A stretch of DNA of 64,000 bases from an uncultured Oscillospiraceae bacterium (GTDB lineage Bacteria; Bacillota; Clostridia; Oscillospirales; Oscillospiraceae), in NCBI GenBank assembly GCA_944385095.1, contig CALWVS010000002.1, forward strand, positions 1-64,000. The letters are read 5' to 3'. The notes beneath the pieces are model-generated. The model saw nothing but the letters and a program-made list of their open reading frames with translations. It was not told the DNA's origin and made no database searches. Positions 39,663-64,000 of the stretch are shown here, one piece after another. Each line of letters begins with the position of its first letter. Within the stretch, counting starts at the first letter, position 1. Made by a program: the position numbers and the translations under genes.

Positions 39663-39680
39663 TTGGAGGTGCTGTAACAA

Positions 39681-40049: not shown

Positions 40050-40062
40050 GGAGGGATAACAC

Positions 40063-40464: not shown

Positions 40465-40488
40465 TTCGGAAGAAGGAGGTTTTGACAC

Positions 40489-41091: not shown

Positions 41092-41265
41092 GAAACAAGT
41101 CCTCAGGGTCTCCGGTATACCGGAGACCTGGAAGGGCTTTGTCCTTCTCTGTTGGAAGAAGGACAGGGATTCTGTTTGGAAAGAATTAGACAACCCTCAG
41201 ATATTGGTGAGCTGAATCAGACGGCTTGACATAAGACCGTCGAGAAAAGGAGGGTATCATAGCAT
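41092..41265 (+). promoter_or_regulatory. Structured spacer between rpsD and rpoA
   Basis: Three hairpins lie in 174 bp: the perfect palindrome GGTCTCCGGTA/TACCGGAGACC (41107-41128), TGTCCTTC/GAAGGACA (41140-41165) and GACGG/CCGTC near 41219. None has a U-tract. It could tune rpoA expression relative to ribosomal proteins by processing or protein binding (inference). Confidence 0.45.
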
Positions 41266-42216
41266 ATGGTAGAAATCAAAAAGCCCCGCATTGATTGTGT
41301 GGAAAATCCAAATGACGCATCCTATGGAAAGTATGTGGTAGAACCTCTGGAGAGAGGCTATGGAACCACTTTGGGCAACTCAATGCGTCGCATTTTGCTG
41401 TCCTCTTTGCCTGGTACTGCGGTTACTTCGATTAAAATTGCTGGAGTACAGCATGAATTTTCCACCATTCCAGGCGTGAAGGAAGATGTGACTGAAATTG
41501 TCCTCAATGTCAAGAGCATTATTGCAAAGCTCCACTGTGAGGAGACAAAGACAGTACACATTGAGGCAGCAGATGAGTGTGTTGTAACAGCAGGTGACAT
41601 TAAGTGTGATGCAGATGTTGAGATTCTCAATCCAGATCTGCATATTGCCACCTTGGGAGCTGGTGCAACATTGAGCATGGAGCTGACCATTTCCCACGGC
41701 CGAGGCTATGTTCCCGCTGATCGGAACAAGCCCGCCCAGACTATTATTGGTCTGATTCCTGTGGACTCTATTTATACTCCAGTGCGCAAAGTCAACTATA
41801 CAGTGGAAAACACCCGTGTGGGTGATGCCACTGACTATGACAAACTGACACTGGAAATTTGGACGGATGGTACTATTGACGCAAGAGATGCAGTATCTCT
41901 TGGTGCTCGTATTCTGTGTGATCACTTTACACTGTTCACTGACCTGTCCGAGACAATGGGCAGCCGTTCCACTGTTGTGGAGCAGGCAGAAACCCAGCGG
42001 GATAAGGTCATGGAGATGACCATTGACGATATGGACTTGTCTGTCCGTTCCTATAACTGCTTGAAGCGTGCCAACATTAACACTGTGGAGGATTTGATTT
42101 CCAAGACAGAGGAAGAAATGATGAAGGTACGCAATTTGGGACGTAAGTCTCTGGAAGAAGTCATCAATAAGCTGTCCACCATGGGTCTGTCCCTGGCCAG
42201 CGATGACAATGTGTAA
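41266..42216 (+). CDS. rpoA: DNA-directed RNA polymerase subunit alpha
   Basis: Alpha dimerises to nucleate RNA polymerase assembly, and its C-terminal domain binds UP elements and activators. The N-terminal domain has [20 protein letters not shown]-type sequence ([18 protein letters not shown] near residue 26). The C-terminal domain contains [16 protein letters not shown]-like [18 protein letters not shown] near 255. The 316-residue length is normal. Confidence 0.98.
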
Positions 42217-47550: not shown

Positions 47551-48876
47551 TTAGAGGCGAGCTTCCAGTTTTGCTTTTTGTTCCTCGTAGCCTGGTTTTC
47601 CCAGCAGGGCATACATATTCACCTTATATGCCTCTACACCTGGCTGGTTGAATGGATTGACATCCAAAAGATAACCAGAAAGACCACAGACATACTCAAA
47701 GAAGTAAATGAGGTAGCCAGCAGACAGAGCAGAAATCTGAGGCATTTGGATCAGTACATTGGGAACACCGCCGTCTACATGGGCAAGAATAACAGCCTTT
47801 AGGGCTTGTTCTGCCACAAAGGACAGATTTTTGCCAGAGAGGAAGTTCAGACCATCTACATTGGCAGGGTCATTTGGAATCTGGAAAGTACCCTGAGGAG
47901 CAAACTGTACCACTGTTTCAAACATGATACGTTCACCTTCTTGGATGTACTGTCCCATAGAATGCAGGTCAGCAGTAAATTCTACGCTGGCAGGGAAGAT
48001 ACCCTTGCCATCTTTGCCTTCACTCTCACCATAGAGCTGTTTCCACCACTCGGAGAAGAAGCGGAAGCAAGGCTCATAGCAAGCCAGCAATTCAATCTTT
48101 TTTCCACTCTCATAAAGTGCATGACGGGCTGCGGCATATTGCCAAGCGGGATTGTCTAAGCCAGGAACAGCCAGTGCAGTCATAGCCTGTGCAGCACCAT
48201 CCATCAATGCCTGAATGTCAATGCCAGCCACAGCAATGGGGAGCAGTCCCACAGCAGTCAGAACAGAGTAGCGACCACCCACATCGTCAGGAACCACAAA
48301 CTCCTCATAGCCTTCTGTATCTGCAAGTCCTTTCAGTGCACCGCGCGCTTTATCTGTAGTGGCATAGATGCGCTCCTTTGCCCCTTCCTTTCCATACTTT
48401 TCCTCCAGCATGGTTTTAAAAATACGGAATGCAACAGCAGGCTCTGTGGTGGTGCCAGATTTAGAAATCACATTGACAGAGAAATCACGGTCACCAATGA
48501 GTGCAATGGTTTCCAAAAGAGCGTCTGTGGACAGTCCATTGCCAGCATACAAAATGTCAGGGGTATCTTTCTTTTTCAGGTTGTAGTTGGGAGAAGCCAG
48601 CAGGTCAATGACTGCACGGGCTCCCAGATAGGAACCGCCGATACCAATCACCACAAGCACCTGAGACTGTTGCTGAATTTTTTTTGCAGCAGCCTGGATG
48701 CGTGCAAATTCCTCTTTGTCATAATCACGAGGCAGAGAAACCCAGCCAGTGAAGTCTCCACCTGGTCCATTGTGATGAGCCAGCATGGAAGCAGCTTCTG
48801 TTAAACGGGCTTCACGAGTGGTAAGATAGTCGTTGGGGATAAAACCGTTTAGTTTGGACAAATCAAGGGTAAGCAT
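47551..48876 (-). CDS. pgi: Glucose-6-phosphate isomerase
   Basis: The enzyme interconverts glucose-6-phosphate and fructose-6-phosphate in glycolysis. The 441 residues, short for Pgi but normal in Firmicutes, show [19 protein letters not shown] near residue 74, [16 protein letters not shown] near 135 and the C-terminal QPGVEAYK with the catalytic Lys. AGGAGG fixes ATG 48876. It is monocistronic. Confidence 0.97.
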
Positions 48877-48988
48877 GAAAAAGCCTCCTTCGTACAATGA
48901 AAATTTACCACAGACAGTATAGCACAAATCATCTTTTTTTTCATGGCAGAAATAAGAAATATTAAAAAAAGAAAATACAAGAAAAGGA

Positions 48989-49017
48989 TTGACATCTTCT
49001 TGTGAATCGGTTATAAT
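48989..49017 (+). promoter_or_regulatory. Consensus promoter of tRNA-Val
   Basis: TTGACA (48989-48994), 17-bp spacer, TATAAT (49012-49017): a perfect sigma-A consensus 15 bp before the tRNA. Confidence 0.92.
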
Positions 49018-49031
49018 AACCTACGTTGTTC

Positions 49032-49107
49032 GGACGATTAGCTCAGCTGGTAGAGCATCCGCTTGACGTGCGGGAGGTCACAGGTTCAAGTCCTGTATCG
49101 TCCACCA
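49032..49107 (+). tRNA. tRNA-Val (anticodon GAC)
   Basis: The acceptor stem GGACGAT/ATCGTCC, D-arm AGCTCAGCTGGTAGAGC, anticodon loop TTGACGT with GAC, and T-arm ACAGGTTCAAGTCCTGT form a complete cloverleaf. CCA is encoded. Confidence 0.96.
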
Positions 49108-49112
49108 GATAG

Positions 49113-49147
49113 AAACCCCTGAAACCATTTGGTTTTAGGGGTTTTTT
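49113..49147 (+). terminator. Terminator of tRNA-Val
   Basis: AAACCCCTGAAACC/GGTTTTAGGGGTTT hairpin followed by a T-run. Confidence 0.9.
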
Positions 49148-49304
49148 GCGTGTTCTTGCTTTTCTGAAGGACAAAGGATACAATGAAAGGTGTAGATATG
49201 GAAGCAGAATGTGCTGCCTGAGAGTATATAGTATATTTGGTATGGCAGAATAGAAAATACATCTGCTCTATAAAATGCGGTCATTAGAAAAGGGGAGGGA
49301 GAAC

Positions 49305-51329
49305 ATGAAAAAGCGATTGTCGAGTTTGATACTGGTTTTTGTGCTGGTTTTGGGTATGATTCCTGCCATTACTTCAGGGGCGCAGGCATACAGTACTCCT
49401 GTGGTTGGTTCTGCCCATTCTGACCGGGGAAATACATTGGATGTCAATTCCAGCGGAAACTATGAAATTTTTATGGTGGATGGGTATCTGATTCAGATGC
49501 AGGATGGCAGTCTGAAAGATAATAGACACTTGATGGTACGTACATACACCCCTGATTTTCAGTTTCTGTCTGAAAAAGAGTTAGAAATTGAGTTGCAGGA
49601 ATTGGGTGGTGTCTTTTTTGGACAAGATTACAATTTCGTTGTGTTTGGTCAGGACAACTGGGAAGAACGGGCTGATGTGGAGGTACTGCGGGTTGTCAAA
49701 TACTCAAAAAACTGGGAGCGATTGGGCGCAGCAGGGCTTTATAGCGATACTGTGACGGATATTATTGGTCAGTGGGGCAACTTTGCCTATACTGAATATA
49801 ATGGGATGCTCTATATTCATTCTGGACGGTCTACCAACACATTGTATGATGGAGATCAACACCAGACCAACATGACCTTCTGTGTACGCCAGTCAGATAT
49901 GGTGGTCACAGATACTCGGTTGGGCATTACATCATTGGGTACTGGATATGTTTCCCATAGTCTTACGCAAGACATTCTTGTGGATTCTCAGGGACGTTTA
50001 GTGACAGTAGATACTGGAGATGCAACCCCAAGAGGAGCCTATCTGTTCCGCTATGACCAACCTGCGGGAGGAACTACATTTTATAATGGCAAAGGAGAGG
50101 GAGTTACCTTTGCTACATGGCCTGGAAAAGGGGGACATGTGACCAAGTATCCCACCAATGCACAGGTGACAGCCGTTGTGGAAACAGAGCAAGGGTATTT
50201 GGCAGCCTATATTGACACGGGAAGGGGTTCTTTAGGGGGAACAGGTTATCCATACAGTGCCTATTTGACCCTAATCCATAAAAATGACCTGTCAAACTAT
50301 ACTACACGCACACTACAGAGTTGGTCTCAGTATGCTCCAGAATGTGCATGGGGTGTTCAGCTCATTCCCATCAATAGCACATCGGGTTATGTACTGTGGT
50401 ATACCACAGCACCAAATGAAAATGGAACCTATCCAGCCGCATCTTCTGAGGATTATCACTACTATTATACCACTTACTCTGCTAATGGTTCTTTTGAGAA
50501 CCCTGTGGATTTAGGGGTTGTGCCTGGTGCCTATACTGGTCCCATTTACCACAATGGGCAACTCATCTGGGCAGATACATCAAAGGGAGCAGACAAAATT
50601 CGATTCTGTACGTTAGATACTTCTGGTTTGCAGATTCATACAGTCAATGAAAGTACATCACAGCCAGAACCAGAGCCAACACCTGTACCTGAAACGACAA
50701 CCTCTTTTCAAGATGTACCATCCAGTCATTGGTCTTATTCTTATGTGACTCGAGCAGCAGAAAACGGATGGGTTACAGGGATTGGAGATGGAAAATTTGC
50801 CCCAGATGATACACTGACCTATGCTCAATTCTATGCAATGGTCACTCCCATTTTTAGGGCAGACGATTTGGCAGAGTACCAACCAGATACAGGCAGCCAA
50901 TGGTGGCAAAAGTATATGTGGGTTGGTGGAAAAACATTGATGGCAAATTCTATTTGGGTAGATACACAGCCAGTTATGGGAAAAGAGCTTACATTGCAGG
51001 AATCTATCAACCAATACGCAGACAAGGCAATTTCCCGTACAGATGCCATTTCCATTATGTGGAGAGTATTGGGGGAGTGGAAAGCCAATGAAACGATTTC
51101 TGGTGTAGATGCAGCACGGGAAAAACTGCAAGCAGCAGGGGTATCCTTGAATGTAATGGAATGGGATACTGTGCCCGTCTGTTATGCTGCTGGGTTGGTT
51201 TCTGGAGACCAGAATGGTGATTTGAATCTTCAAGGAACATTGACCAGGGCTGAGGGATGTGTTATGCTGTGCAATCTGGTGGACTACGCAAGCAGTCATG
51301 GCATTAGTATGGGCAGAAAAGGAGCCTGA
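49305..51329 (+). CDS. Exported SLH-domain surface protein with beta-rich N-terminal region
   Basis: The 674-residue protein has a signal peptide (about residues 1-28, ending AQA). A beta-rich region of about 420 residues follows, with repeated Tyr/Trp/Gly-containing strands that may form a propeller (inference). A Pro/Glu linker (PEPEPTPVPE) leads to SLH repeats: SFQDVPSSHWSYSYVTRAAE near 467 is the clearest; two more degenerate ones reach the C-terminus. SLH domains bind pyruvylated cell-wall polymers, so the protein is likely wall-attached. ATG 49305 follows GGGAGG. It lies 43 bp upstream of a second SLH protein, a probable operon. The binding target of the N-terminal region is unknown. 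Confidence 0.85.
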   Translation: MKKRLSSLILVFVLVLGMIPAITSGAQAYSTPVVGSAHSDRGNTLDVNSSGNYEIFMVDGYLIQMQDGSLKDNRHLMVRTYTPDFQFLSEKELEIELQELGGVFFGQDYNFVVFGQDNWEERADVEVLRVVKYSKNWERLGAAGLYSDTVTDIIGQWGNFAYTEYNGMLYIHSGRSTNTLYDGDQHQTNMTFCVRQSDMVVTDTRLGITSLGTGYVSHSLTQDILVDSQGRLVTVDTGDATPRGAYLFRYDQPAGGTTFYNGKGEGVTFATWPGKGGHVTKYPTNAQVTAVVETEQGYLAAYIDTGRGSLGGTGYPYSAYLTLIHKNDLSNYTTRTLQSWSQYAPECAWGVQLIPINSTSGYVLWYTTAPNENGTYPAASSEDYHYYYTTYSANGSFENPVDLGVVPGAYTGPIYHNGQLIWADTSKGADKIRFCTLDTSGLQIHTVNESTSQPEPEPTPVPETTTSFQDVPSSHWSYSYVTRAAENGWVTGIGDGKFAPDDTLTYAQFYAMVTPIFRADDLAEYQPDTGSQWWQKYMWVGGKTLMANSIWVDTQPVMGKELTLQESINQYADKAISRTDAISIMWRVLGEWKANETISGVDAAREKLQAAGVSLNVMEWDTVPVCYAAGLVSGDQNGDLNLQGTLTRAEGCVMLCNLVDYASSHGISMGRKGA

Positions 51330-51372
51330 GAAAGGTATGTAAGGTTTCATTTTTGCAGAAGGAGAGAAATAT

Positions 51373-52614
51373 ATGAAAAAACGGTTTGTGTGCCAAATAC
51401 TTTCCCTCATGTTGTGCCTTGGATTAGTAGTCCCGGCATCTGCTGCCCATACCACATTTGAAGATGTTTCACCCACGCACTGGGCATATAATGCCGTTGA
51501 ATTTGTGGTAGATCAGGGGTTATTCAATGGAACTGGGGCTACAACCTTTTCGCCGGATGCGACCATGACCCGAGCTATGTTAATACAAGTTTTGTGCCGC
51601 TATGCTGGTTCCCCTGCTGTTTCTGGGACTATCAAAACAGATACAACTTTTACAGATGTACCAGACAATGCATATTATGCCAATGCGTTGGTGTGGGCTT
51701 GCCAGAATAAACTTCTGCCCAACTGGTTTTTGTACGACACATCTTATTATAATGTAGACTCAAAAGAACAGCATATTTTACATCAGTTCCAACCAGAAAA
51801 AGTGATGGTACGCTTAGATTTTGCCATTATGTTAAACAGATTTATGTCCACAGTACTGAATCAGCCACTGGGTTGGGACTTCTATCATTCACTAGAGTTT
51901 GATGCTTATAACTGCCCTCTGGTTGATATGCGAGAGTCAGGAATCAATACAGCATTTATTACAGCATACCCAGAATACAACAGGAGTGCAGATGATACCA
52001 TTGGAGCTTACTATGCACTGGCATGGGCATACAAGATGGGAATTATGAGCGGAACCAGTGCCACAACCATGTCTCCTACTGCTGATATCACCCGGGCACA
52101 GGTGGCAGTCATGTTGAAAAATTTTTCAGAGAACTATGGCACAGAATATAGTCCACAGGTTCCCGAAACCCAGCCAGAGGAACCCATCAATCCTGAACCT
52201 GTTACCCCCACACTTGCCAATGGAAAAGAAATCAATGATGATAACATCCGAGAAATTATCTATGGATTGCAAAGCAGTTATCCAGAAGGTATGCGCTGGA
52301 CCAATGACAACTATTACAGCTCAGATGCTCTTTATCGGGGAGGCTATGGCTGTGAGGGGTTTGGGTTAATTTGTAGTGATGCAGTATTTGGCTCTCTCCC
52401 ATTGAGTGGAGAGCATTCTGATTTTAATGAGATTCGGGTGGGTGATTTGGTTCGTATCAACCATGATACTCACACAGTTGTGGTTTTAGAAAAACATGAG
52501 GATAGTATTGTTGTGGTAGAAGGGAATTTCAACTCATCTATCCATTAGGGAAGAGAAATTAGCTATCAATCTTTAATAGATGGGGAGTTCTCTGTGCGTA
52601 CACGCTATCCATAA
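51373..52614 (+). pseudogene. SLH-domain protein with C-terminal papain-like domain, interrupted by TAG
   Basis: A signal peptide (about residues 1-24, ending ASA) precedes three SLH repeats (near 26-75, 90-160 and 200-265; FEDVSPTHWAYNAVEFVV is the first). A Pro/Glu linker (PETQPEEPINPEP) follows. The C-terminal domain has candidate catalytic Cys (GYGCEGFG), His (NHDTHTVVVLE) and EGNFN, resembling a papain/CHAP-like wall hydrolase fold. The frame stops at TAG (52546-52548), exactly where related sequences, from memory, have the Trp of SSIHWGR. The frame continues GREISYQSLIDGEF to TAA at 52612-52614. A TGG-to-TAG change would truncate 22 residues. Function may be lost or partly retained; the remaining product is 391 residues. 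Confidence 0.75.
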
Positions 52615-52666
52615 AAAGAGTTTTGCCATTTAACACTTGTAAGGATATAAAGAAGGGTATACATAA

Positions 52667-52716
52667 AAATCCCAGCAAGAAGGATTCAACAATCACTTTT
52701 TGCTGGGATTTATTTC
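52667..52716. terminator. Bidirectional terminator after the SLH pair and the chemoreceptor
   Basis: AAATCCCAGCAA/TTGCTGGGATTT stem with a 21-nt loop. The minus side has a TTTTT run, the plus side TTATTTC. Confidence 0.8.
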
Positions 52717-52745
52717 ATAATTTAAAAGGAAGTATGCTTTACATC

Positions 52746-54821
52746 TTATTTTCGATTTAATTGGAATTTACCAATGAGATCACGAAGATTTTGTGCCTTT
52801 CTTGACAGCTCTTGACTGGTAGCATCCGTTTCCTCAGAAGCGGCAGAGTTTGTTTGAACCACAGATGTCACCTGTTCCACTCCAATGTTAATTTGGGAGA
52901 TAGATTGAGACTGCATTATGGAAGAAGATGCAATTTCTTGAATCAATTTGGAAGTATCTTGACTGAAGGTTACGATTTCCTTCAAACTATCTGCGGTTTC
53001 ATTTGCAATTTTTCGACCCTGTTCTACTGCTTTGGAGGACTTTTCAATCAACAGGGATGTGTGATGGGCAGCTTCAGCAGATTTTTGTGCCAGTGTACGC
53101 ACCTCATCTGCAACAACGGCAAAGCCCTTGCCAGCAGTACCAGCTCTGGCGGCTTCTATGGCTGCATTCAGAGCAAGGATATTGGTCTGGAAGGCAATGT
53201 CATCAATAGTTTTAATAATTTGATTGATTTCGATAGAACTTTGAGAGATTTCCTCCATTGCTTCTACCATAGACTGCATTTGAGCATCACCTTCCATAAT
53301 TTTGCCTTCTGAGGTGGTAGCAATGGATTGTGCATGTTCTGCATGTGAAGCAGTTTTTTGGACATGTTCAGAAATTTCACTGATGGAAGCGGAGAGTTCT
53401 TGTAGGGTAGATGCCTGTAAAGTGCTGCCAGATGCAAGAGAGTGTGCACTTTCAGAAAGGACTTGAGAACTGGCGTTGACATCTTCTGCTACATCCTGAA
53501 TTTTGTACAGGGTATGACTTAGTGTCTCACGAATGGCAAAAAGAGCCTCTTTAATTTTAGCAAATTCCCCTACATAGTCCTGTTTTAAATAAAAATTTAA
53601 ATTTCCATCTGCAATTTTATTCAGGGCATTTGTGATTTCTGCAATGTAGGTAATGTAAGAATTTAAGCGGACTACAGTATGAGAAAGGGCAGTGGCTACT
53701 TCGCCAGTTTCCCCTTTGGTATCACAACGAATTTCTACATCTAATTTGCCATTGGCAATTTGTTCAGCACAACGTGCCAAAGTTTTCAGGGGGCGTACAA
53801 TACGACGTGCAACCACGACGGCAATGCCGACAGAAATGAGTCCAACAATCAAAGAGAAAAGAGCTGTGGAAGATATGATGGAGGTGGTGCTGGAAAAGGC
53901 AGCAGACTTTAGCTGTACTGTAATGACACCCCAGGGATCGGATGCCCCAGGGATTTCAATCGGTTGATAGGCATAAATGGCGTCTTCACCGGTTTCTGTT
54001 TTCAATTCCACAGTTCCAGTATTACCTTGTAAAAGTGCATCAGTCATATCCTGAAAGCCTTCTGGTAAAGTGATAGAAACTTCCTCAGTAATCTCTTTTC
54101 CAGAGGAATCTTTGGTAGACAGTGTTTTGGTTGCTGTCTTATAATTATAGAGCTGAGCAACATAGTCCTGGTTGGGATGAGCAATCAAATTGCCCTCTCC
54201 ATCTACCAGAATGGAGTAAATGTCATCTGTATTATAAGTATCAATTAGTTCCTGTAATTTTCCAAGGTTTAGGTCAGCGGCCAGCATACTGGTCATAGCA
54301 CCAGAAGCATTATGCACAGGAAATACAATTGTGGTCACCGGTTCCCCTGTAGTTATGGTATAATAGGACTTGGAGACATAGGGCTCCCGCAATTCCATCT
54401 CACGAATAAACCACCAGCGGTCAGCACGGTTGCCCAAGGTACCAGAGCTACGGGCGGTTTGATTGCCATCTAGGTTTTGTTGATAGAGTACGGAAAATGA
54501 AGGATTGTTTTCTACTGTTTCCACCAAAATGTTACGTTGCATGGTTGGGTCAAGAGAGGTAATGTCATAGCTAGAGGAAACACTTTCAATCACTGCGTAA
54601 GCAGTCTGAATGTAAGCTGTAACCTGACTGGAAATACTTTGGGTGCGTTCTTTGATGCTTTCATAGGCATCTGTTTTACCAAGAGAAAACGAAATTTGCG
54701 AACTGAGCAGACAGGAAATAAGCAGAGGAATCATTGAAATGCAGACGGAGAGGGCAATGATTCGAAAGTGAATGCTATGTGTGGGACAGCTAAAGTGTAA
54801 TGCGTGTTTTTTCTTTGACAT
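52746..54821 (-). CDS. Methyl-accepting chemotaxis protein
   Basis: This is a transmembrane chemoreceptor. The 691-residue protein has TM1 at about residues 22-42, a periplasmic-type dCache sensing region (about 45-310), TM2 near 320-342, a HAMP domain ([20 protein letters not shown]) and a long cytoplasmic coiled coil. The signalling tip [18 protein letters not shown] with [16 protein letters not shown] identifies it. No cheW-binding pentapeptide tail is seen. The dCache region probably binds a small ligand such as an amino acid; this is not predictable. No other chemotaxis genes are nearby. Confidence 0.95.
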
Positions 54822-55027
54822 AGTCGTACTCCTTTGTACCCAACAAAATACAACACAAAGTAGAGGTTCAGAATGAACCGGGATGGGCTACTATGTCATT
54901 GTACCATATTATAGGACAAGATTCACTGCAATTATCAACAAAATTTTCATTTATCACACATTCTGGAATGCGATGGAAAGTATGAGATTATATGTAAATT
55001 TGAACTGAGAATGAGAGGCGAGAGGTT

Positions 55028-58000
55028 ATGCAAGAAAGACAAGTGCGGCGTTTGACCCTTATGGTAGCAGAAAGAATGGAGCAGGAACAGCTATCCTGCG
55101 CCTCTACCAGACGGGAAGCAATGGAGTTATTGCGTACACCGGGTTGGATGGAGGAATTGAGTGCCCTGTTGCCCTTGCGCAGACGGTTGGAATGTGGTGA
55201 AGTGTTGGGAGTTTGTGCCCCTATTTTGGCAAAACTGTCACCAGTGCCAGAGGATGGCTGGCTCTCCTTTTGTTACCGCTATGTGCGCTCTATTTTATAT
55301 CCCCAAGGGGGGTTCGCACCTGATGCAGAGGAGTATGAGGTAGGAGCAAAGTTTTTTCTTCTTGTATTGCAGGTACTGCTGGACTATGAGAGAACAGTGC
55401 TGCCCTTTGACCCATTGATGGATTTGGCGTTTCTCACAGAAGAGGAGTATCGAGGATATGAATTGGAGGGAGAGTATCGTCAACTATTATACTATTATCG
55501 AAAAGAATATGTATATGAATTGATGCGATTGGGACAGGAAGTGACCCCATTCCGTACATTGGGTCATATCGGTGGAGTACACCATATTGCCATGACAGTG
55601 GCGCGGGGGTTACAGGCGGCTGGTGTGGAAATCGACCTGTCTCTCATATCAGGAGCCGCAGCAGCCCATGATATTGGAAAATATGGATGTAGACCAGGAG
55701 AGAGAGTGCCCTATCTCCATTACTACTACACTGACCAGTGGTTGCTGGAACGTGGAATGGAAGGAATTAGCCATATTGCAGCCAACCATTCCACATGGGA
55801 TTTGGAGCTTGAATCTCTATCAGTAGAGTCTCTGTGTCTCATTTATGCAGATTTCCGTTCCAAACAGGATCGAGACGAAAATGGAAATGAAATTACTGTA
55901 TTATATCCACTGGATGAGTCATTTCAGGTCATTCTGTCAAAATTGGATAATGTGGATGCCAGCAAACGGCGCAGATATGAACTTGTGTATGGAAAATTGC
56001 ATGATTTTGAGAACTATATGTGTACATTAGGGGTGGATATTGGGCTGACAGGGCAAATGCAGGAACCCAAAGCCTACAAAGACCCTGCTCTCATGGGACC
56101 AGAGGAGACAGTAGAGAAATTGACGCTGTTATCAGTGGAACATAACTTAAAATTGATGCACTTATTGTCAAATGAAAGAAAATTTGGCAACATTATTGAG
56201 TCTGCCCGTTCCACAAAAGACTGGAAGCAGCTGAGAGCGTATCTGAATATTTTTGGAGAGTATTTCACTTATTTGTCCGTGAAGCAAAAAAGACAAGCGT
56301 TGGCATTTCTCTATGAACTTCTGGTTCACCGAGAGGGAGATATCCGCAGACAAGCGGCTGCATTGATGGGGCAGATGATTGCACGGTTCCACTTGGTCTA
56401 TCGGAAAGAACTGCCTGTGGATGCACCAGAAGACCCTGCGGAGGCTGTGCCATTTACACTATGGGAACAGTATTTAAATATGATTTTGTATCCCGACCAC
56501 AAAACCACCCAACAACAGAGGGCGCATATCAGTTATACCTTGAAACTGGTACTGACCGCTTTGCTGGATTATGCCAGACCCAGTGACATTCCACATTTCT
56601 TAGGCGCATTGCTGCGCTACTATGAAAATGCTTACAATATGGATGCAGATACCGCCTTTACCTTATTAGATGCAGCCAGATATATTCCTTCCAAATACTG
56701 TGATGATGAAGTACGCAGCACATTGATTGAATTTGCTGCCCAATGGGCGGGGTCAAAGGATTTGAGGATGGAGACAGCCACTCTGCAATTCCTGAGACGG
56801 GCAGAACGTTCTCTGTCACGACAGCACCCACTGTTGAAACGCATTGTGGAAATTGCCAAAACAGTACAACCAAACAGTTTGCCTGTTACCTTTTTACAGT
56901 ACCGCATTTTGAAACGTGCAGGGGAAAATGTGAGCAGTCATAAGCATCTTCTATATGAACAGGATGTAACCAGTGAAGTTTTTCTGGACAATCTAAAGAC
57001 AGCAACTCCATGGATTGTGAAATCCGTGGGTGTGGAATTGCTGCAAGACCAGATAGAACATGGAATGATGGAGCATATTCTGCATATCTGTACACACTAC
57101 TCCAATTTGATTAAGGTTTCAGAACGTGTTGTGGTGCGACATGATGCAGGTGCTGCACTGGTGCGGATTTTGCCACTTTTACGCCGTGACCAACGCAATG
57201 AGGTGGTTGTGGAGCTTGGAAAGGGGCTGGAAATGGGTCAATATTCCATTTCGAAATACATTCCTGAGTATTTGGGGCAAGCCGCCCTCTTTTTACATCC
57301 CAGTGAGTTGGATGAGCAGGTACTATGGTTGAAAACATTGCTGGGTTCCCCCAATGACTCTGCTGTTTCTGGCGCACTCAATACCATAGGAGTTCTGTTG
57401 CAGTACTACCCCACCTACCGTACACGATTTACTCAGTCAGAACTTTCTTATGAAAACCGCCGACAGGATTTGTTGGGACTGCTTTTGCAGGGACTTGCCC
57501 ACTACCGTACACCTGTACGGCAAGAGGCGCTGCTGGTGGTTGGAAAGCTGCTCTTTGAAAGTCGAATTCTTCCCATGGAAGAAAAGGCACATATTTTCAG
57601 ATTAAGCTACCATAAGCTGCTCTTTTTGATTCAGGAATCTGGAAATCACGCCGATGATCTCACCTTTTTTTATCGTGCCTCTGCACTGGCATACATCAAC
57701 CGCTTTATCTCCCTTTGGCGGCTGGATCATGGGACCTTCGCCCTGCCAGCTCCACGAAAAATTGCATTTTTCCCTGGGACTTTTGACCCATTTACTCTGT
57801 CTCACAAAGGAATTGTATGTGCCATCCGAGATCTGGGATTTGAGGTCTACCTTGCCATAGATGAATTTTCTTGGTCGAAAAAAGCACAGCCACATCTGAT
57901 TCGCAGACAAATTGTAAATCTGTCTGTGGCAGGAGATTTCCATGTCCACCTGTTTCCAGATGATATTCCAGTGAATATTGCAAACCCCAGTGACCTGAAA

Positions 58001-59830
58001 CGACTACAAGAGTTGTTCCCCACACAGCAGGTCTATCTGGTGGTGGGAAGTGATGTAGTTGCACATGCTTCCTCCTATCAAAATCCCCCTCAGCCATGGT
58101 CTGTCCACTCTATGAACCATATTATTTTCCATCGAGCAGGAGAGGAGCCACTGCCAAAAGGGGAGAAACTGCCCATTACTGGTTCTGTGATTCAGCTTCA
58201 ATTACCACCCCATTTAGAGGACATCAGTTCCACACGTATTCGTGAAAATGTGGATTTGAACCGAGATATTTCTAATTTAATTGATCCAGTCATTCAGGAT
58301 TTTATCTACCGGAATGGTCTTTATCTGAGGGACAGTCAGAATAAACCTGTGTTAGGGCGTAGGGATGTCCAATTCCAGTGGGTTTCAGAGCCAGACGCCT
58401 ATATGATTGCCGACCTGACCGCTGGACGGGGAGACCGTGAGGCAATACGGACAGGGGTATTGCAGGGAAAAGACCAGTTGTTGCTCTTCCGCAGAGGTGG
58501 GCAACTGATGGGGTATGCCAGTTTCCGATATTTGACGGCAACCCAGCTATTTGGTGCATTGAAAGATACTGAACTAGCCAATCGGATTCGGCTGCGTTCT
58601 GCTGGTACTACATTGATGATTACTTCCATCGGTGCAGATTGTTCTGACCCATTGTGTGACAATTTACAGTTAATTTTGACGGAAGTTTTGGCAAAGGCGC
58701 TGGCAGATGACTGTATTTATGGGCTCTATTTCCCATATGGAACCCTGCCAGATGAAACCTTAGAGGATACACTTCAGCGACAGGGATTTTTAAGGCAGGA
58801 GGGCACCACACCCCTGTGGGAAGTGGATATGAGTGCTCCATCTGTGCTGTTCCAGAACTTAGAGACCGCGATTCAAGAGCCACTGAGCCAGAATGTGCAG
58901 GTTTTAACTGCCATACAGGAGGGACATAAACAACTGCAACGGGCATTGACAAAACTGTATCCTCGATTCCTGCTTTTGACTATCTCGTCAGAGGTCATGC
59001 ACCAAAGGCTGTTAGAGATGATTACAAGCTACAATGAGGTACCATCTGAACCAACAACCCCAAGAAAACTGGGAAAAAATATGTGTGTACCCTATGGCAA
59101 ACTGTTGCGCGGAAAAATAGTCCCCAACACAGTGACAAAAACCATTCATACAGACCGTGTCTATACACCGGATTTGTCAGAAAGCACTATGGAGGCGTTC
59201 CCATACTATGCCCCCATCCCAAGTCAAATCCGAACCATTAAATCCTTCCAGCGTCCTGTGATTCTGGTAGACGACCTGATGCACCCAGGATTTCGGATTC
59301 AATCCCTTGACCTAATTTTGCGCCAGGAAAATGTAGATATTCGTATGGTTTTGGTAGGACTGTTGTCAGGACATGGACGGGATTTGATGGAATCTCTGGG
59401 ATGGCCAGTGGACAGTGTGTATTATCTGCCCAGACTGCGGGATTGGTTTATCGAATCCACCCTGTATCCCTTTGTGGGTGGCAATACCGTGCAACGTGAT
59501 ACCTCTCCAGTACCTGGATTGTTGCCAGGAATCAACCACATTTTGCCCTATGCATCCCCTGCATTCCGAGGGCAGTGCACTGAGGAGGCAGTGTTTGAGG
59601 TGTCCCGCTGCTGTCTGGAATCTGCCTACAAGTTGATTTTTACATTGGAGCAGGAGTACAGAACCCTGTATGGAAAAAATTTAACATTAAGTCGATTGCC
59701 AGAGGCAATTATATTGCCACTGTGCCCAGATAAGGGGACCTGTTTGCGGTATGATCCATCATTGGCAGCCTCTGAATATCTGGAAAATGATTTGGAGCAG
59801 TTGTTGCGAACCCATATTCAGTGGGGATAA
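55028..59830 (+). CDS. Giant multidomain protein: HD hydrolase, helical repeats, NadD-like nucleotidyltransferase, GNAT-like and phosphoribosyltransferase-like regions
   Basis: The 1600-residue cytosolic protein has several parts. The HD domain has His in GGVHHIAM (near 185), HD in AAAAHDIGKYG (214-215) and His in ISHIAANHSTW (249-254). Residues about 360-900 are helical and HEAT-like (REGDIRRQAAALMGQMI, YRTPVRQEALLVVGKLL). A nucleotidyltransferase domain follows, with GTFDPFTLSHKG (917-928) and ISSTRIRE (1066-1073), the NadD-type motifs. Residues about 1090-1290 resemble a GNAT acetyltransferase (GQLMGYASFRYL, LMITSIGAD). Near 1408-1424 lies VILVDDLMHPGFRI, like the PRPP-binding loop of phosphoribosyltransferases. 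Two genes follow at 26-27 bp. The NadD-like domain and the partner genes suggest nucleotide-cofactor chemistry (inference). The family is not recognised by name. Confidence 0.85.
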   Translation: MQERQVRRLTLMVAERMEQEQLSCASTRREAMELLRTPGWMEELSALLPLRRRLECGEVLGVCAPILAKLSPVPEDGWLSFCYRYVRSILYPQGGFAPDAEEYEVGAKFFLLVLQVLLDYERTVLPFDPLMDLAFLTEEEYRGYELEGEYRQLLYYYRKEYVYELMRLGQEVTPFRTLGHIGGVHHIAMTVARGLQAAGVEIDLSLISGAAAAHDIGKYGCRPGERVPYLHYYYTDQWLLERGMEGISHIAANHSTWDLELESLSVESLCLIYADFRSKQDRDENGNEITVLYPLDESFQVILSKLDNVDASKRRRYELVYGKLHDFENYMCTLGVDIGLTGQMQEPKAYKDPALMGPEETVEKLTLLSVEHNLKLMHLLSNERKFGNIIESARSTKDWKQLRAYLNIFGEYFTYLSVKQKRQALAFLYELLVHREGDIRRQAAALMGQMIARFHLVYRKELPVDAPEDPAEAVPFTLWEQYLNMILYPDHKTTQQQRAHISYTLKLVLTALLDYARPSDIPHFLGALLRYYENAYNMDADTAFTLLDAARYIPSKYCDDEVRSTLIEFAAQWAGSKDLRMETATLQFLRRAERSLSRQHPLLKRIVEIAKTVQPNSLPVTFLQYRILKRAGENVSSHKHLLYEQDVTSEVFLDNLKTATPWIVKSVGVELLQDQIEHGMMEHILHICTHYSNLIKVSERVVVRHDAGAALVRILPLLRRDQRNEVVVELGKGLEMGQYSISKYIPEYLGQAALFLHPSELDEQVLWLKTLLGSPNDSAVSGALNTIGVLLQYYPTYRTRFTQSELSYENRRQDLLGLLLQGLAHYRTPVRQEALLVVGKLLFESRILPMEEKAHIFRLSYHKLLFLIQESGNHADDLTFFYRASALAYINRFISLWRLDHGTFALPAPRKIAFFPGTFDPFTLSHKGIVCAIRDLGFEVYLAIDEFSWSKKAQPHLIRRQIVNLSVAGDFHVHLFPDDIPVNIANPSDLKRLQELFPTQQVYLVVGSDVVAHASSYQNPPQPWSVHSMNHIIFHRAGEEPLPKGEKLPITGSVIQLQLPPHLEDISSTRIRENVDLNRDISNLIDPVIQDFIYRNGLYLRDSQNKPVLGRRDVQFQWVSEPDAYMIADLTAGRGDREAIRTGVLQGKDQLLLFRRGGQLMGYASFRYLTATQLFGALKDTELANRIRLRSAGTTLMITSIGADCSDPLCDNLQLILTEVLAKALADDCIYGLYFPYGTLPDETLEDTLQRQGFLRQEGTTPLWEVDMSAPSVLFQNLETAIQEPLSQNVQVLTAIQEGHKQLQRALTKLYPRFLLLTISSEVMHQRLLEMITSYNEVPSEPTTPRKLGKNMCVPYGKLLRGKIVPNTVTKTIHTDRVYTPDLSESTMEAFPYYAPIPSQIRTIKSFQRPVILVDDLMHPGFRIQSLDLILRQENVDIRMVLVGLLSGHGRDLMESLGWPVDSVYYLPRLRDWFIESTLYPFVGGNTVQRDTSPVPGLLPGINHILPYASPAFRGQCTEEAVFEVSRCCLESAYKLIFTLEQEYRTLYGKNLTLSRLPEAIILPLCPDKGTCLRYDPSLAASEYLENDLEQLLRTHIQWG

Positions 59831-59856
59831 TAGACATCTTATATGAGGTGAGGAAC

Positions 59857-61095
59857 ATGTATTACTACTATGAAAAAGCCGGCAAGGTATTGGCATCCAG
59901 TCAAGAGAATTTGCCCTACCCATCTATCACACCAACAGGAACAGAACATATCTACTACTTAATAGATGGGGACCCTGTACTGGGACGGGGCATGTTTAAA
60001 GTAAATCACGCCGGGCAGCTGGCGTGCCCCCATGATTTGCGTGTTTTGGATGCCTCCCGACTGCCTCAAGTGCAGTTGGATGAGACTTTGACCCAAGCAT
60101 TGGAACATGGCACCTTGACAGCGGTCAATACTGGTCGAGTCAACTGGGAATCCTGTCTGGAGGTGCAGCCAAAGACGGAGAAAAAGAGGGTACATATTCT
60201 GGCCATTGGAGATGTGGGCTCTACGTTGTTGACCGGGCTGAAACTGTTGGGAGGAGATGTGATTTCTACCATTGGTATTTGCGATGTCAGCCAGCAGACC
60301 ACAGCCAGATGGGAATTTGAAATGGGGCAAATCAATCTGCCTTGGGAGTATGATGCTTTTCCTGAGGTGGAGATTGTGCCAAAAGAGAACTTATTTGATT
60401 GTGATTTGTTTGTATTTGTGGCATCCAGAGGGATTCCCCCTGTTGGCTCTCAAATAAAAGATGTGAGAATGGCACAGTTTGAAACCAATGCCGCCATTGT
60501 AAAAGAATATGCAAGGATGGCAAGAGAGGCAAAGTTCCAGGGGTTATGGTGCGCTGTGTCTGACCCTGTGGACCCACTGGCAAAGACAGCCTATTTGGAG
60601 AGCAACCGAGATGAAAACGGGCAATGGGATGGAAAGGGACTGAGACCAGAGCAGGTACAGGGGTTTGGTCTGGGCGTTATGAATGCAAGAGCAGCTTATT
60701 TTGCAAAGAGAGATGAGCGGCTGGCGTCCTTTTTGAAAGAAGGTCGCTCCTTTGGTCCTCATGGAACAGGGTTATTTATTGCCAATTCTCTGGAACACTA
60801 TGATGAACAACTGTCTCAGGAGCTGACACAGCTCACTGTGACTGCCAACCTGAAAATGCGTGAAATTGGATTTAAACCCTATGTCGCACCCGCTCTGTCC
60901 TCTGGTGCCCTGTCTCTCCTGTTGACCATGAGAGGAGAGTGGCACTGTGGCTCTGTCTTTTTGGATGGAATTTATATGGGGGTAAAGAACCGCTATACCC
61001 CAGCAGGTGTAGAGACAGAACTGCTTTCCCAGATACCTGATCCACTGTTTGCCCATATTCAGGAGGCAGCAGACCATCTAAAGGGCATTTTGTAA
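59857..61095 (+). CDS. Lactate/malate dehydrogenase-like NAD-binding protein
   Basis: The 412-residue protein has a roughly 105-residue N-terminal region of unknown type (MYYYYEKAGKVLASSQ). A Rossmann domain follows with HILAIGDVGSTLLTGLKLLG (about 114-133) and an Asp at the end of the second strand (ICD, 143) favouring NAD(H). Further blocks CAVSDPVDP (232-240) and GFGLGVMNARAAYFAKR mirror lactate/malate dehydrogenase topology, and FGPHGTG supplies a candidate catalytic His. Whether it is an active dehydrogenase is unclear. ATG 59857 is chosen from GAGGTGAGG upstream. It is the second gene of the three-gene unit with the giant protein. Confidence 0.75.
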   Translation: MYYYYEKAGKVLASSQENLPYPSITPTGTEHIYYLIDGDPVLGRGMFKVNHAGQLACPHDLRVLDASRLPQVQLDETLTQALEHGTLTAVNTGRVNWESCLEVQPKTEKKRVHILAIGDVGSTLLTGLKLLGGDVISTIGICDVSQQTTARWEFEMGQINLPWEYDAFPEVEIVPKENLFDCDLFVFVASRGIPPVGSQIKDVRMAQFETNAAIVKEYARMAREAKFQGLWCAVSDPVDPLAKTAYLESNRDENGQWDGKGLRPEQVQGFGLGVMNARAAYFAKRDERLASFLKEGRSFGPHGTGLFIANSLEHYDEQLSQELTQLTVTANLKMREIGFKPYVAPALSSGALSLLLTMRGEWHCGSVFLDGIYMGVKNRYTPAGVETELLSQIPDPLFAHIQEAADHLKGIL

Positions 61096-61122
61096 GCCAA
61101 ACCGTGGTGAGAAGGTGAAGAA

Positions 61123-62181
61123 ATGGCACTGGTGGTTATTTGTCCAAAACAGGAAGGTGTCACACACCAGAGCAGAATGGAAGGAGTATTGCATAGGGTA
61201 CTGGAAAAAGAACGTGTGCAATGGATTACCCATGCACAGCAGCTAGAAGCCCTATGGGGACAGACAATCCTGTTTGCAGTTCAATTAAATGAGACAGGGT
61301 TGAATTTGGAGTATTATGCCATGTTATCCCGTTTGAGAGGAGAAACTGACCTACTGCATGGATGTACAGGTGGAATTTTGGTGGATGGAACAGGAGAATT
61401 ATACACAAAATCCACTGCAGCAGAACTGGCACTGGCATTGAGTGGAGCGGGCTGTCATCTCATTGGCAGACCATTGGTGGAGGCAACAGGCTCCCTTTTT
61501 AATTTTCGGATACAGGCAAACAATTTAAACTGTACTGTGGAACAGGCATATGAGACCGCAGTGGCAGAACTGGTCACACGGTTACAGACAGAACAATTTC
61601 CAAAGCGGGAAAATCCCAATCTTTTGGCACTTCACGCCTCCAGCTATCATGCTTCAAATACCATGACACTGTGGCAGAAAACAAAAAATCAACTGCCCAA
61701 ATCCTTTCAAATTACAGAAATAGGGCTGCGCAATGGCACCATCTATGACTGTGCAGCCTGTCCCTATACCACTTGTCTCCATTTTGGAGAAAGAGGTGGC
61801 TGTTTCTATGGTGGGGTCATGTCAGAAGAAGTTTACCCAGCCATTCGGCAGGCAGATGGGCTGATTTTAATGTGCCCAAACTACAATGATGCCATTTCTG
61901 CAAACTTAACCGCCTTTATTAACCGTTTAACCGCACTGTTTCGACAGACACGGTTTTATGATAAAGCAGTGTTTGCTATTGTGGTATCTGGATATTCTGG
62001 CAGTGATACTGTGGCTCGGCAGATTATTTCTGCACTCAACATGAATAAATCGTTTTATCTGCCAGCTCACAGTATCTGGATGGAAACAGCCAATGCACCA
62101 GGAGAAGTGCTGCATAATCAGGGGTTGACCCAGCGGTTGGATCAGTTTGTCCATATCATTACAGAAACATTACAGAGATAA
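61123..62181 (+). CDS. Flavodoxin-fold NAD(P)H-dependent oxidoreductase with N-terminal extension
   Basis: The 352-residue protein has an unrecognised N-terminal domain (about 1-160) and a C-terminal FMN-reductase/flavodoxin-like domain (about 165-345). The latter shows LLALHASSYHASNTMTLW (phosphate loop), a Cys set CAACPYTTC...GGC (Cys210, 213, 218, 227) like the CxxC of many FMN_red proteins, then ADGLILMCPNYNDAISANL and FAIVVSGYSGSD. It probably binds FMN; the Cys set could hold an iron-sulfur cluster or metal (inference). It is the third gene of the unit, 27 bp after the dehydrogenase-like gene, and a strong terminator follows. Confidence 0.8.
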   Translation: MALVVICPKQEGVTHQSRMEGVLHRVLEKERVQWITHAQQLEALWGQTILFAVQLNETGLNLEYYAMLSRLRGETDLLHGCTGGILVDGTGELYTKSTAAELALALSGAGCHLIGRPLVEATGSLFNFRIQANNLNCTVEQAYETAVAELVTRLQTEQFPKRENPNLLALHASSYHASNTMTLWQKTKNQLPKSFQITEIGLRNGTIYDCAACPYTTCLHFGERGGCFYGGVMSEEVYPAIRQADGLILMCPNYNDAISANLTAFINRLTALFRQTRFYDKAVFAIVVSGYSGSDTVARQIISALNMNKSFYLPAHSIWMETANAPGEVLHNQGLTQRLDQFVHIITETLQR

Positions 62182-62226
62182 AAATTACAACCCTTTCACA
62201 TGGTTATGTGAAAGGGTTGTAATTTT
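62181..62226. terminator. Strong bidirectional terminator
   Basis: Perfect 21-bp stem AAAATTACAACCCTTTCACAT with its complement and a 4-nt loop; T-rich on both strands, between convergent genes. Confidence 0.9.
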
Positions 62227-63082
62227 ATCTACAATGCTGGGACCATATACGACCAATGATAGCACCAAACACAAAAATATTCCCGCAAAAATAGAGCCAG
62301 GCAAGCAGAATCATGAGAGATGCTAAGGAACCATATACAAGAGAATAGCGGGTGGACATGTCAATAAACCAGGAAAAGAGAGCGGAACATGCCACCATAG
62401 CAAGGGCAGAGAGGCAGGCAGTAGCACGCAAAATACCACGGTGTTGGCGTCGAATTGCAGTTGGGGTTCCTGCGCGATATACCATGAGGACCAAAAGGAA
62501 CACAGATGAAAACAGCAAAAGATAGCGTAGCCACTGCCAAATAGAGGAGAAAGACGGCAATGGAATGGAAGAGGGGATAAATTGTTCTAAAACAAGAAAA
62601 AACCACTCCCCTGTAAAAATAACAATGATAGAGAGATACACAGTTAACAGGAACAGGAGCGAGAGGGAGACACTAAAGAAAATCCGATGCAGAGAATGGG
62701 AAAGGGGCACTTCATAGAGGTCATCCATCGTTTGCAGCAGTGTGCGCATACCAGCAGAGGCAGAAACCAGAATGGTGAATAGACTTGCAAAGAGCAGAGG
62801 TGTGGTCTGTGCTTTGGGAATGGATGAGACGTAGTTGAGATAATCTGACATAATTTGAATGCTGTCTTGTGGCAAAAAGGGTTCCAATCCATTTAAAAGT
62901 TCAGGGGCACCAATAGGTAGTAACCCAATTAGAAAATGAATACACATTAAAAGAGGAAACAGAGTGAGGACAAGAAAATAGGAAAGTGCAGCGGCGGCAC
63001 GGGAACCACCTATTCTACCGTGAGTTTCAGCAATTTCAAAAATCCATGTAATAGGTTGAGGAATCTTCCAGTTTATTCTCAT
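62225..63082 (-). CDS. YihY/BrkB-family membrane protein
   Basis: The 285-residue integral membrane protein has six predicted helices and the family blocks GGSRAAAALSYFLVLTLFPLL (about residues 26-46) and the C-terminal LVYGSLASLMILLAWLYFCG. The family was once labelled ribonuclease BN, a call since dropped; its function, possibly a transporter, is unresolved. It is convergent with the three-gene unit. Confidence 0.9.
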   Translation of the reverse strand: MRINWKIPQPITWIFEIAETHGRIGGSRAAAALSYFLVLTLFPLLMCIHFLIGLLPIGAPELLNGLEPFLPQDSIQIMSDYLNYVSSIPKAQTTPLLFASLFTILVSASAGMRTLLQTMDDLYEVPLSHSLHRIFFSVSLSLLFLLTVYLSIIVIFTGEWFFLVLEQFIPSSIPLPSFSSIWQWLRYLLLFSSVFLLVLMVYRAGTPTAIRRQHRGILRATACLSALAMVACSALFSWFIDMSTRYSLVYGSLASLMILLAWLYFCGNIFVFGAIIGRIWSQHCR

Positions 63083-63144
63083 AACATCACATCCTGATGT
63101 GGTTGTGTAGTGAGTGTAGCAGAAAATGAAAGAGAAGGAAATAG

Positions 63145-63175
63145 AAAAAAGCCGTCTGCTATGCAGACGGCTTAT
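63145..63175 (-). terminator. Terminator of rpsT
   Basis: Minus-strand stem AAGCCGTCTGC/GCAGACGGCTT with a tight loop, followed by TTTTTTC. Confidence 0.92.
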
Positions 63176-63199
63176 TCAGTGCCAGAAAAGAACAGACAA

Positions 63200-63463
63200 T
63201 CAAGCCAGCTTGTTCAGCTTAATGGTCATGCTGCTCTTCTTATGTGCAGCGTTGTTCTTGTGCAGAAGTCCCTTGACAACAGCCTTGTCAACAGCCTTAA
63301 CAGCGACCTTATAAGCTACATCGGCCTCGCTGCGGTTGCCTTCGGCTACAGCGGCCTCAAACTTCTTAATGTCGGTCTTCAGTGCAGACTTAGCGGCCTT
63401 GTTCTGCATAGCCTTGGTCTGAGAAACCAGAACACGCTTCTTAGCAGACTTAATATTTGGCAA
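63200..63463 (-). CDS. rpsT: 30S ribosomal protein S20
   Basis: S20 binds the lower body of 16S rRNA. The 87 residues read PNIKSAKKRVLVSQTKA at the start and GLLHKNNAAHKKSSMTIKL at the end. A TTG start at 63463 is required, since GGAGG lies about eight bases upstream and the family begins MPNIKSAKKR. S20 genes often use a weak start codon for autoregulation. Confidence 0.96.
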   Translation of the reverse strand: MPNIKSAKKRVLVSQTKAMQNKAAKSALKTDIKKFEAAVAEGNRSEADVAYKVAVKAVDKAVVKGLLHKNNAAHKKSSMTIKLNKLA

Positions 63464-63596
63464 ACCAAACACCTCCTCCGATTCTACCATCGTCAAATTT
63501 AGGCACAGAATCCCTGTGCAGATATGTATTATACCACCATGTTTTTTAAAATGCAACTATAAATTTTGAAAAAGAGCAATTTTTTTTGAAGGGGAA

Positions 63597-64000
63597 TCAA
63601 TCCTTTTTCATAATCACAAACTTCATCATGGGGTAGTTAATCACAACCTGCAAGAAGATGTTGATGACATTGGCAACTGTAGCGGCAAAGCTACCTACAT
63701 ACTGGCTGAGAATGGGGGTAATGTAGCCAGGCAGTGCAATGCTGATGAGACCAGCCACAGTCACAGTGAGGATGTACCAGCCGATGGTTTTGGAAATGTC
63801 CACAGTGGCACCAAACACCAATTTGCGCTGCACAATGTAGTTCACAATCTGAGCGCAGATATAGGCAACCAGGAAGCCCAGAAAACCACCTAGACCGCCT
63901 GAGCCTTCTGCACTGTAATCAAAAATAAACCACTGGAAGGGTTCGTTTAAGTTGGCAAACAGAATGCCAGTGGTCAACCAGAGAACCACAAAGTTTGTAA
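63597..64000 (-). CDS. GtrA-family membrane protein (partial)
   Basis: Four-helix membrane proteins of this family help translocate lipid-linked sugars such as bactoprenol glucose. The frame runs open to the window edge; helices include FLGFLVAYICAQIVNYIVQRKLVF (about residues 36-59 of the visible part, ending in the family R-K-x-V-F signature) and a C-terminal segment ending in MMKFVIMKKD. The start lies outside the window; a GTG at 63989 is possible but the frame continues upstream of it. Confidence 0.82.
   Translation of the reverse strand, partial: TNFVVLWLTTGILFANLNEPFQWFIFDYSAEGSGGLGGFLGFLVAYICAQIVNYIVQRKLVFGATVDISKTIGWYILTVTVAGLISIALPGYITPILSQYVGSFAATVANVINIFLQVVINYPMMKFVIMKKD

Follow-up and report, generated by a model that had tools for sequence, protein, structure and literature searches.

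Introduction

One of the closest known counterparts of the protein that concerns us here is the NadD-YqeK fusion of mycoplasmas, in which a single chain carries both a nucleotidyltransferase of the NadD type and an HD hydrolase; in Syn3A, the HD domain of the fusion hydrolyses nicotinic acid adenine dinucleotide, together with faulty analogues that the fused NadD is able to make (PMC9426524). We analysed a stretch of 64,000 nucleotides (the window; positions 1 to 64,000 of contig CALWVS010000002.1, assembly GCA_944385095.1) from an uncultured Oscillospiraceae bacterium and, within it, a unit of three genes, g1, g2 and g3, the first of which encodes a giant protein that combines the same two kinds of domain with further parts. 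Fusions of this kind also occur in the genomes that carry the unit (module genomes), coexisting with g1 in 15 of 22. Compared with them, g1 has its HD domain first, with ∼500 residues of helical repeats between this domain and the NadD-like part. The g1 HD domain is unlike the tails of the fusions, the NadD-like part lies far below the cut-off for NadD, and parts that resemble a GNAT domain and a phosphoribosyl pyrophosphate (PRPP) loop are added.

Other known proteins resemble single parts of the unit. The top sequence match to the NadD-like domain in the Protein Data Bank (PDB) is the uncharacterised VPA0413 (PDB 3h05, E 3.5e-5), which we take to be from Vibrio parahaemolyticus; a W-x-K motif is common to both, but VPA0413 is a chain of 177 residues without the other domains of g1. 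With the NadD-type model PRK08887 of NCBIfam, whose cut-off is 164 bits, g1 reaches 27.9 bits. A further case of an HD domain joined to a nucleotidyltransferase may be the DVU_1551 family of nucleoside triphosphate (NTP) transferases (NF045665), for which we found no paper naming it in the open-access literature: positions ∼200–300 of the model, presumably its HD part, match the HD domain of g1 in 25 of 25 members (best E 7.8e-9). The match is confined to g1 residues 155–263, and the transferase of g1 is NadD-like instead. The L-lactate and malate dehydrogenases (LDH and MDH) share with g2 the Rossmann half and the equivalents of Arg109, Arg171 and His195, while g2 differs at two catalytic positions and has ∼105 extra N-terminal residues. 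Iron-sulfur flavoproteins share with g3 the FMN_red domain and four invariant cysteines, but the spacing in g3 is CX2CX4CX8C rather than the compact CX2CX2CX(4-7)C, and g3 has an additional N-terminal part.

The recognised parts all belong to known superfamilies, but for the set as a whole the literature and family libraries searched offer no named counterpart. The first-pass annotation of this DNA knew of no named pathway with these genes, and we also found none: titles and abstract openings in the open-access literature describe the gene set nowhere, a description in subscription papers being possible. The three genes are co-inherited as a set, the motifs of two catalytic-type domains of g1 are invariant, and g1 is not the NadD of the cell. 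We tentatively propose that the set serves a nucleotide-linked molecule other than ordinary nicotinamide adenine dinucleotide (NAD).

Linkage and co-inheritance

When 84,980 species genomes were scanned, 173 stretches proved to encode a relative of g1; the best 80 of these were examined (the named loci). The g1 reading frame spans 1590–1622 residues in 74 of the 80, with starts as chosen, and the other six are cut by a contig end or have a broken frame. Copies outside the named loci, for which the longest start was taken, have 1529–1834 residues; one match (G705) contains a single internal TAA. No altered domain order was seen among the g1 copies examined.

The first-pass annotation had described three linked genes with gaps of 26–27 bp, and both the open reading frames (ORFs), which lie head to tail, and the gaps of 26 and 27 bp are as claimed. 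The linkage also extends to other species, as seen in the named loci and in samples of the host family and phylum. The end of g1 plus 2.5 kb beyond it was included in 65 of the 80 named loci. In 59 of these, g2 follows g1 in the same orientation at a distance of up to 2 kb (median gap 47 bp); L070 and L071, in which g2 adjoins g1 but its start as chosen overlaps g1, bring the total to 61. Where there was enough room, g3 was found within 2 kb past g2 in 56 of 63 loci. Eight named loci have g2 or g3 displaced or absent next to g1, and g2 was present elsewhere in the genome in 8/8 cases. g3 was present in 12/12 genome entries searched for it, corresponding to 11 genomes as two of the entries (G652 and G726) look like one. 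Named loci without g2 or g3 because of a contig end stayed outside this follow-up.

Full-length g1 occurs in 15 of 150 genomes sampled from the host family, and strong g2 matches occur in the same 15 (Fisher's test, p∼6e-21, for genomes that are related and so not independent). g3 (E up to 1e-40) is present in 14 of the 15, the exception (G719) being a genome that is 67% complete, and the remaining 135 genomes have none of the three genes at these strengths. Weak matches were set aside, namely five LDH-like ones for g2 and HD-sized ones for g1 in two genomes. Across the phylum, strong g2 is found in 8 of 398 genomes, the host included. All of the other seven have g1 and g3, which lie beside g2 in six; in the seventh (G519), g3 is beside g2 and g1 is elsewhere in the genome. 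As a control, g1 was absent from three genomes with weak LDH-type g2 matches and present in five of five with strong g2.

Of the other gene families around g1, antisense artefacts aside, even the most frequent is found at no more than 16 of 100 loci. This is an undercount from crude ORF calling, in which long antisense ORFs displaced real genes, such that g2 and g3 were themselves each clustered in 52 of the 100. The pairwise distances of g1, g2 and g3 correlate with one another (r 0.95, 0.92 and 0.87; 58 loci).

Distribution

The closest locus, 99% identical, is from a metagenome-assembled genome of an uncultured Oscillospiraceae bacterium, and g1 identity goes down to 34% with the copy in the window and, when four queries are used, to 33% with whichever is nearest. 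Carriers include Flavonifractor, Pseudoflavonifractor, Lawsonibacter, Oscillibacter, Dysosmobacter, Fournierella, Flintibacter, Clostridium sporosphaeroides and Sedimentibacter. In 18 of the 22 module genomes (four were excluded), the median distance of g1 was 0.60 compared with 0.62 for the housekeeping NadD, and the two sets of distances correlate (Pearson 0.67, Spearman 0.52). We read the inheritance of the module as mostly vertical, with loss or some transfer, and under strong constraint.

The g1 of Acetoanaerobium noterae turned up through a collection of plasmids. The record in question (NZ_CP154629.1, locus L173) is filed as a plasmid and may be a misfiled chromosome, with chromosomal ORFs of ordinary appearance. 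A plasmid-borne module was considered and set aside, as it would depend on this single 2.63-Mb record, which looks chromosomal; a search for separate plasmid relatives of the C-terminal region of g1 matched only the Acetoanaerobium g1 itself. No relative turned up in 50,697 phage records or in the viral contigs searched. A role in anti-phage defence was likewise dropped, given that no PADLOC family matched g1, g2 and g3 of the window or one distant g1 at E up to 1.

Conserved domains of g1

Conservation in g1 was counted over an alignment of 94 rows, 89 of them less than 98% alike (locus L136 is not among the rows), and counts for domain models are at E up to 1 unless otherwise given. The fold assignments for g1, g2 and g3 are based on sequence profiles. 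Each hhalign comparison is one pairing with a small reference set drawn from few genomes, and four GNAT loci and two phosphoribosyltransferase (PRTase) loci were excluded from the reference profiles; for scale, seven unrelated pairings gave probabilities below 1 and two more gave 2.1 and 4.3.

The NadD-like domain is complete. PF01467 matches 54 of 54 relatives, and the window g1 scores 21.1 bits where the cut-off is 21. When its profile was compared with that of canonical NadD (22 proteins), the probability was 98.5 (E 2.4e-15). Residues G917, T918, F919, D920, P921, H926, D1009, S1068 and R1072 are each invariant (94/94), as is I1071, and position 923 is T in 58 rows and S in 36, so that the loop GTFDPF-(T/S)-x-(S/G)-H and the SSTxIR motif of NadD nucleotidyltransferases are both in place. 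The score, by contrast, falls short of NadD: the g1 domain reaches 31.2–59.4 bits in the 22 module genomes, below the TIGR00482 cut-off of 112.45 in every one. A canonical NadD above that cut-off, separate from g1, is found in 22/22 of these genomes, and g1 is therefore not the cell's NadD. The housekeeping NadD bears an HD tail in 15 of the 22, which we take to be YqeK. The domain also contains a DExxWxK stretch, atypical of NadD, of which D945, E946, W949 and K951 are invariant in the alignment rows and the W-x-K aligns with VPA0413.

The putative metal ligands of the HD domain, H180, H214, D215, H231, H254 and D275, are each invariant (94/94). They follow the six-ligand pattern H...HD...H...H...D described in PMC8177086, and H180 was picked as the first of them through weak alignments to 1xx7 and 4mcw (E 0.16 and 0.32). 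PF01966 matches 25 of 54 relatives, the window g1 itself being below the cut-off, and besides NF045665 the NCBIfam models TIGR00295 (21/25) and HDIG (16/25) match this domain. The helical repeats that follow are HEAT-like, with PF02985 models matching 28 of 54 relatives and not the window copy.

The two regions downstream of the NadD-like domain are less distinct. For the GNAT-like stretch, which is among the least conserved parts of g1, support comes from profile comparison only (probability 93.9, E 1.6e-7). No Pfam GNAT model matched any of 25 members at E up to 5, no solved GNAT structure matched in a sequence search of the PDB, and among the 54 relatives Acetyltransf_1 was found in three and Acetyltransf_10 in one. 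We regard the assignment as weak. In the C-terminal region, the acid pair of a PRPP loop, D1415 and D1416, is kept in 93 of 94 rows at each position. With E allowed up to 5, PF00156 matches 15 of 25 members, the lowest E being 4e-5 and the window copy being unmatched; it also matches 8 of 54 relatives, and the assignment as PRTase-like is also a weak one.

The first-pass annotation had read g1 as one chain with several domains of the nucleotide-handling type. This is borne out for at least two domains of catalytic type, HD and NadD-like, which by their profiles retain their motifs (94/94). Profile searches went the same way for PF01467 and the HD models, but GNAT models were largely unmatched and PF00156 only partly matched. 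The invariance of the HD and NadD-like motif residues and the retention of the PRPP-loop acids argue for active sites rather than relics. They also speak against a g1 that consists mostly of degenerate domains and is chiefly a scaffold for g2 and g3. The GNAT-like part, poorly conserved and devoid of a CoA loop, would favour such a role, but we consider it the least credible explanation.

g2 and g3

g2 is related to proteins of the LDH/MDH fold over its full length. Ldh_1_N matches 20 of 20 copies of g2, and PDB sequence matches include 4m1q (E 2.8e-6) and, for the C-terminal half, 2x0i (E 2.0e-4). In a comparison with eight canonical LDH and MDH proteins of the same phylum, for which three of eleven loci were dropped as having yielded the wrong ORF, R204, R278 and H302, equivalent to R109, R171 and H195, are invariant (20/20). 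The description of g2 as lactate/malate dehydrogenase-like thus stands for the fold and three residues and fails at two catalytic positions, which rule out g2 as a plain LDH. The host has in addition an LDH-type gene (L113) with canonical NPVD and GEHGD motifs.

FMN_red matches 18 of 18 copies of g3, which the first-pass annotation had described as a flavodoxin-fold oxidoreductase. Cysteines C210, C213, C218 and C227 are invariant (18/18) and probably form an Fe–S site. The N-terminal 160 residues had no convincing match in profile and sequence searches. A duplicated flavodoxin fold was considered for g3 and rejected, the two halves being unalike (probability 1.7).

Proposed function and alternatives

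We propose, with a probability of about 0.4, that g1, g2 and g3 form a self-contained pathway that builds a nucleotide-linked small molecule other than ordinary NAD and clears faulty copies of it. The C-terminal PRPP-loop region would attach or recognise a ribose-phosphate moiety, and the NadD-like domain would form a conjugate resembling a dinucleotide by nucleotidyl transfer from an NTP. Wrong or surplus product may be hydrolysed by the HD domain, by analogy with YqeK beside NadD, and the HEAT-like solenoid and the GNAT-like fold might keep the parts of g1 together. g2, with the NAD-binding fold of 2-hydroxyacid dehydrogenases, and g3, a flavoprotein that probably has an Fe–S cluster, would each carry out redox chemistry on the precursor or product. 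These activities, their order and the redox roles of g2 and g3 are what we infer from the domains, the invariant motifs, the co-inheritance and the separate canonical NadD. Proofreading by NadD-YqeK is an experimental precedent for an HD domain beside the NadD-like one of g1, and scattered anaerobes retain the giant g1 alongside one and the same pair of redox-type proteins, which points to an undescribed pathway around a molecule of the nucleotide type. The trio is old, as judged by divergence down to 33% identity, near-constant in length and inherited together, and genes kept in this manner may often make or use one molecule. A narrower version of the proposal, in which g1 is a one-chain synthase with proofreading for an undescribed redox cofactor of anaerobes, assembled from a base and PRPP followed by adenylyl or nucleotidyl transfer and then charged or used by g2 and g3, seems to us distinctly unlikely.

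Several results weigh against the proposed pathway. An hhalign comparison of the HD domain of g1 with 16 HD sequences gave a probability of 2.1, and identification of this domain as YqeK is thus unsupported; 15 of the 16 are NadD-fusion tails, which we treat as YqeK although no YqeK model was applied to them. The conserved arginine before the first histidine is not kept (R176 is R in 49 of 94 rows), and the position after it is T in the consensus. The stretch of the GNAT-like region (1207–1219) that aligns with the acetyl-CoA loop, canonically (R/Q)xxGx(G/A), has no conserved glycines in the 94 rows, and together with the missing Pfam and PDB matches this leaves a working GNAT acetyltransferase without support for the region that the first-pass annotation had called acetyltransferase-like. 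The PRTase comparison reached a probability of 79.7 over only 33 columns, and the phosphate loop of g1 is HxGxR, where that of PRTases is usually rich in T and S. In g2, the catalytic Asp168 is replaced by Met275 and Asn140 by Asp236, both fixed in 20/20 copies, and without these residues g2 may not be a dehydrogenase. No riboswitch was found at g1 in a search of positions 48000–64000 of the window and of seven relatives. The correlation between the distances of the three genes is expected in part from shared ancestry even without a joint function. Finally, in one host-family genome (G643, 95% complete) a contig ends in 41 residues of g1, while g2 and g3 are both absent at the thresholds applied; unless the fragment results from an assembly join, this argues against strict linkage.

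We regard NAD maintenance and alarmone signalling as live alternatives. The former, which we judge rather unlikely, holds that the module guards or salvages ordinary NAD(P). As a second, elaborate NadD-HD device it would repair or recycle nicotinamide nucleotides that have been damaged, while g2 and g3 would recognise abnormal dihydro forms or re-oxidise them. It would account for the pairing of NadD-like and HD domains, which mirrors the proofreading of NadD-YqeK (PMC9426524), for the NAD-binding Rossmann half of g2 and for the flavoprotein g3. However, the g1 domain is far from NadD and its HD domain is unlike those of the NadD fusions, a housekeeping NadD with an HD tail already exists in 15 of 22 module genomes, and the patchy spread of the module (15 of 150 genomes) is unlike that of a general housekeeping need.

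In a signalling device, which is more doubtful again, the NadD-like domain would make and the HD domain destroy a dinucleotide alarmone, and the HEAT-like repeats would offer a sensor or effector surface. The dinuclear-type set of HD ligands and the long solenoid are consistent with this, and an HD phosphohydrolase that cleaves diadenosine tetraphosphate (Ap4A) is known (PMC8177086), but a signal of this type leaves the PRPP-loop motif and the two redox-type proteins inherited with g1 without a function, and no constant target genes were found nearby in the 100 loci with crude ORF calling. It is very unlikely that g1 acts instead on the ends or a modified base of RNA or tRNA, with the solenoid binding RNA and the nucleotidyl-transfer and PRPP-type motifs serving base exchange or end addition, as no RNA-binding family stood out in domain-library scans of g1 and its relatives and the NadD superfamily acts on small molecules.

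If the product is indeed a nucleotide cofactor or signal, common gut bacteria related to Flavonifractor, Oscillibacter, Lawsonibacter and Dysosmobacter carry a metabolism of which we found no description. The proposed pathway lends itself to direct tests, as the complete trio is present in Oscillibacter valericigenes Sjm18-20, Sedimentibacter saalensis DSM 13558 and Acetoanaerobium noterae.

Genomic setting

The coordinates of the genes and of the regions of g1 are given in Table 1. The start of g2 was taken as the ATG at 59857, and an alternative GTG at 59821 is likewise open. The module is flanked by a chemoreceptor gene in the opposite orientation and by a convergent BrkB-family gene. A shared terminator had been suggested for the three genes; a hairpin does follow g3, but the scan calls it terminator-like on the minus strand only, and 'shared' is therefore a reading of the palindrome.

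Table 1. Positions in the window of the three genes, the regions of g1 and the downstream hairpin.
Feature	Position	Strand	g1 residues	Description and basis
g1	55028..59830	+		1600-aa multi-domain protein; ORF and alignments (26 rows; 94 rows)
HD domain	55475..56062	+	150–345	Profile matches and invariant putative ligands
Helical (HEAT-like) repeats	56228..57691	+	∼401–888	Boundaries as read by us
NadD-like nucleotidyltransferase	57752..58339	+	∼909–1104	GTFDPF-T/S-xx-H ... GxD ... SSTxIR
Possible GNAT-like stretch	58325..58882	+	1100–1285	hhalign; canonical acetyl-CoA loop absent
PRPP-loop-like region	58880..59587	+	1285–1520	Motif VILVDDLxHxGxR at 1411–1423
g2	59857..61095	+		412-aa LDH/MDH-fold protein with N-terminal extension of ∼105 aa
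g3	61123..62181	+		352 aa: N-terminal part of ∼160 aa, then FMN_red flavoprotein
20-pair hairpin	62182..62225			Separates g3 from convergent BrkB gene; terminator scan

The window is chromosomal, given the genes for ribosomal proteins, SecY and RpoA that end ∼13 kb upstream of the module. This housekeeping region (28554–42213) also encodes adenylate kinase and an M24 peptidase, which we judge to be of the methionine aminopeptidase type.

S-adenosylmethionine (SAM) riboswitches were seen at two other loci, one in Oscillibacter valericigenes (L059, 8605–8699, minus strand) ∼1.3 kb upstream of g1 and one (L143, 19361–19453, plus strand) ∼4 kb upstream; both point away from g1 at a distance and so probably serve neighbouring genes. 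The g1 fragment of G643 (L168, G643:C33) runs directly into frames that we read as LexA-like and error-prone-polymerase-like, by an assembly join or in a broken g1. It was considered as a stand-alone piece and is instead a contig-end stretch continuing into the LexA-like frame.

Elsewhere in the window, positions 21258–23390 encode a 710-residue anaerobic ribonucleotide reductase (NRDD, E 1.8e-192) whose chain also includes a glutaredoxin/thioredoxin-like stretch at the C terminus (residues 632–684, E 8.5e-6). Two secreted-looking proteins of 684 and 391 residues are encoded at 49275–52548, and their repeats resemble S-layer homology domains by eye.

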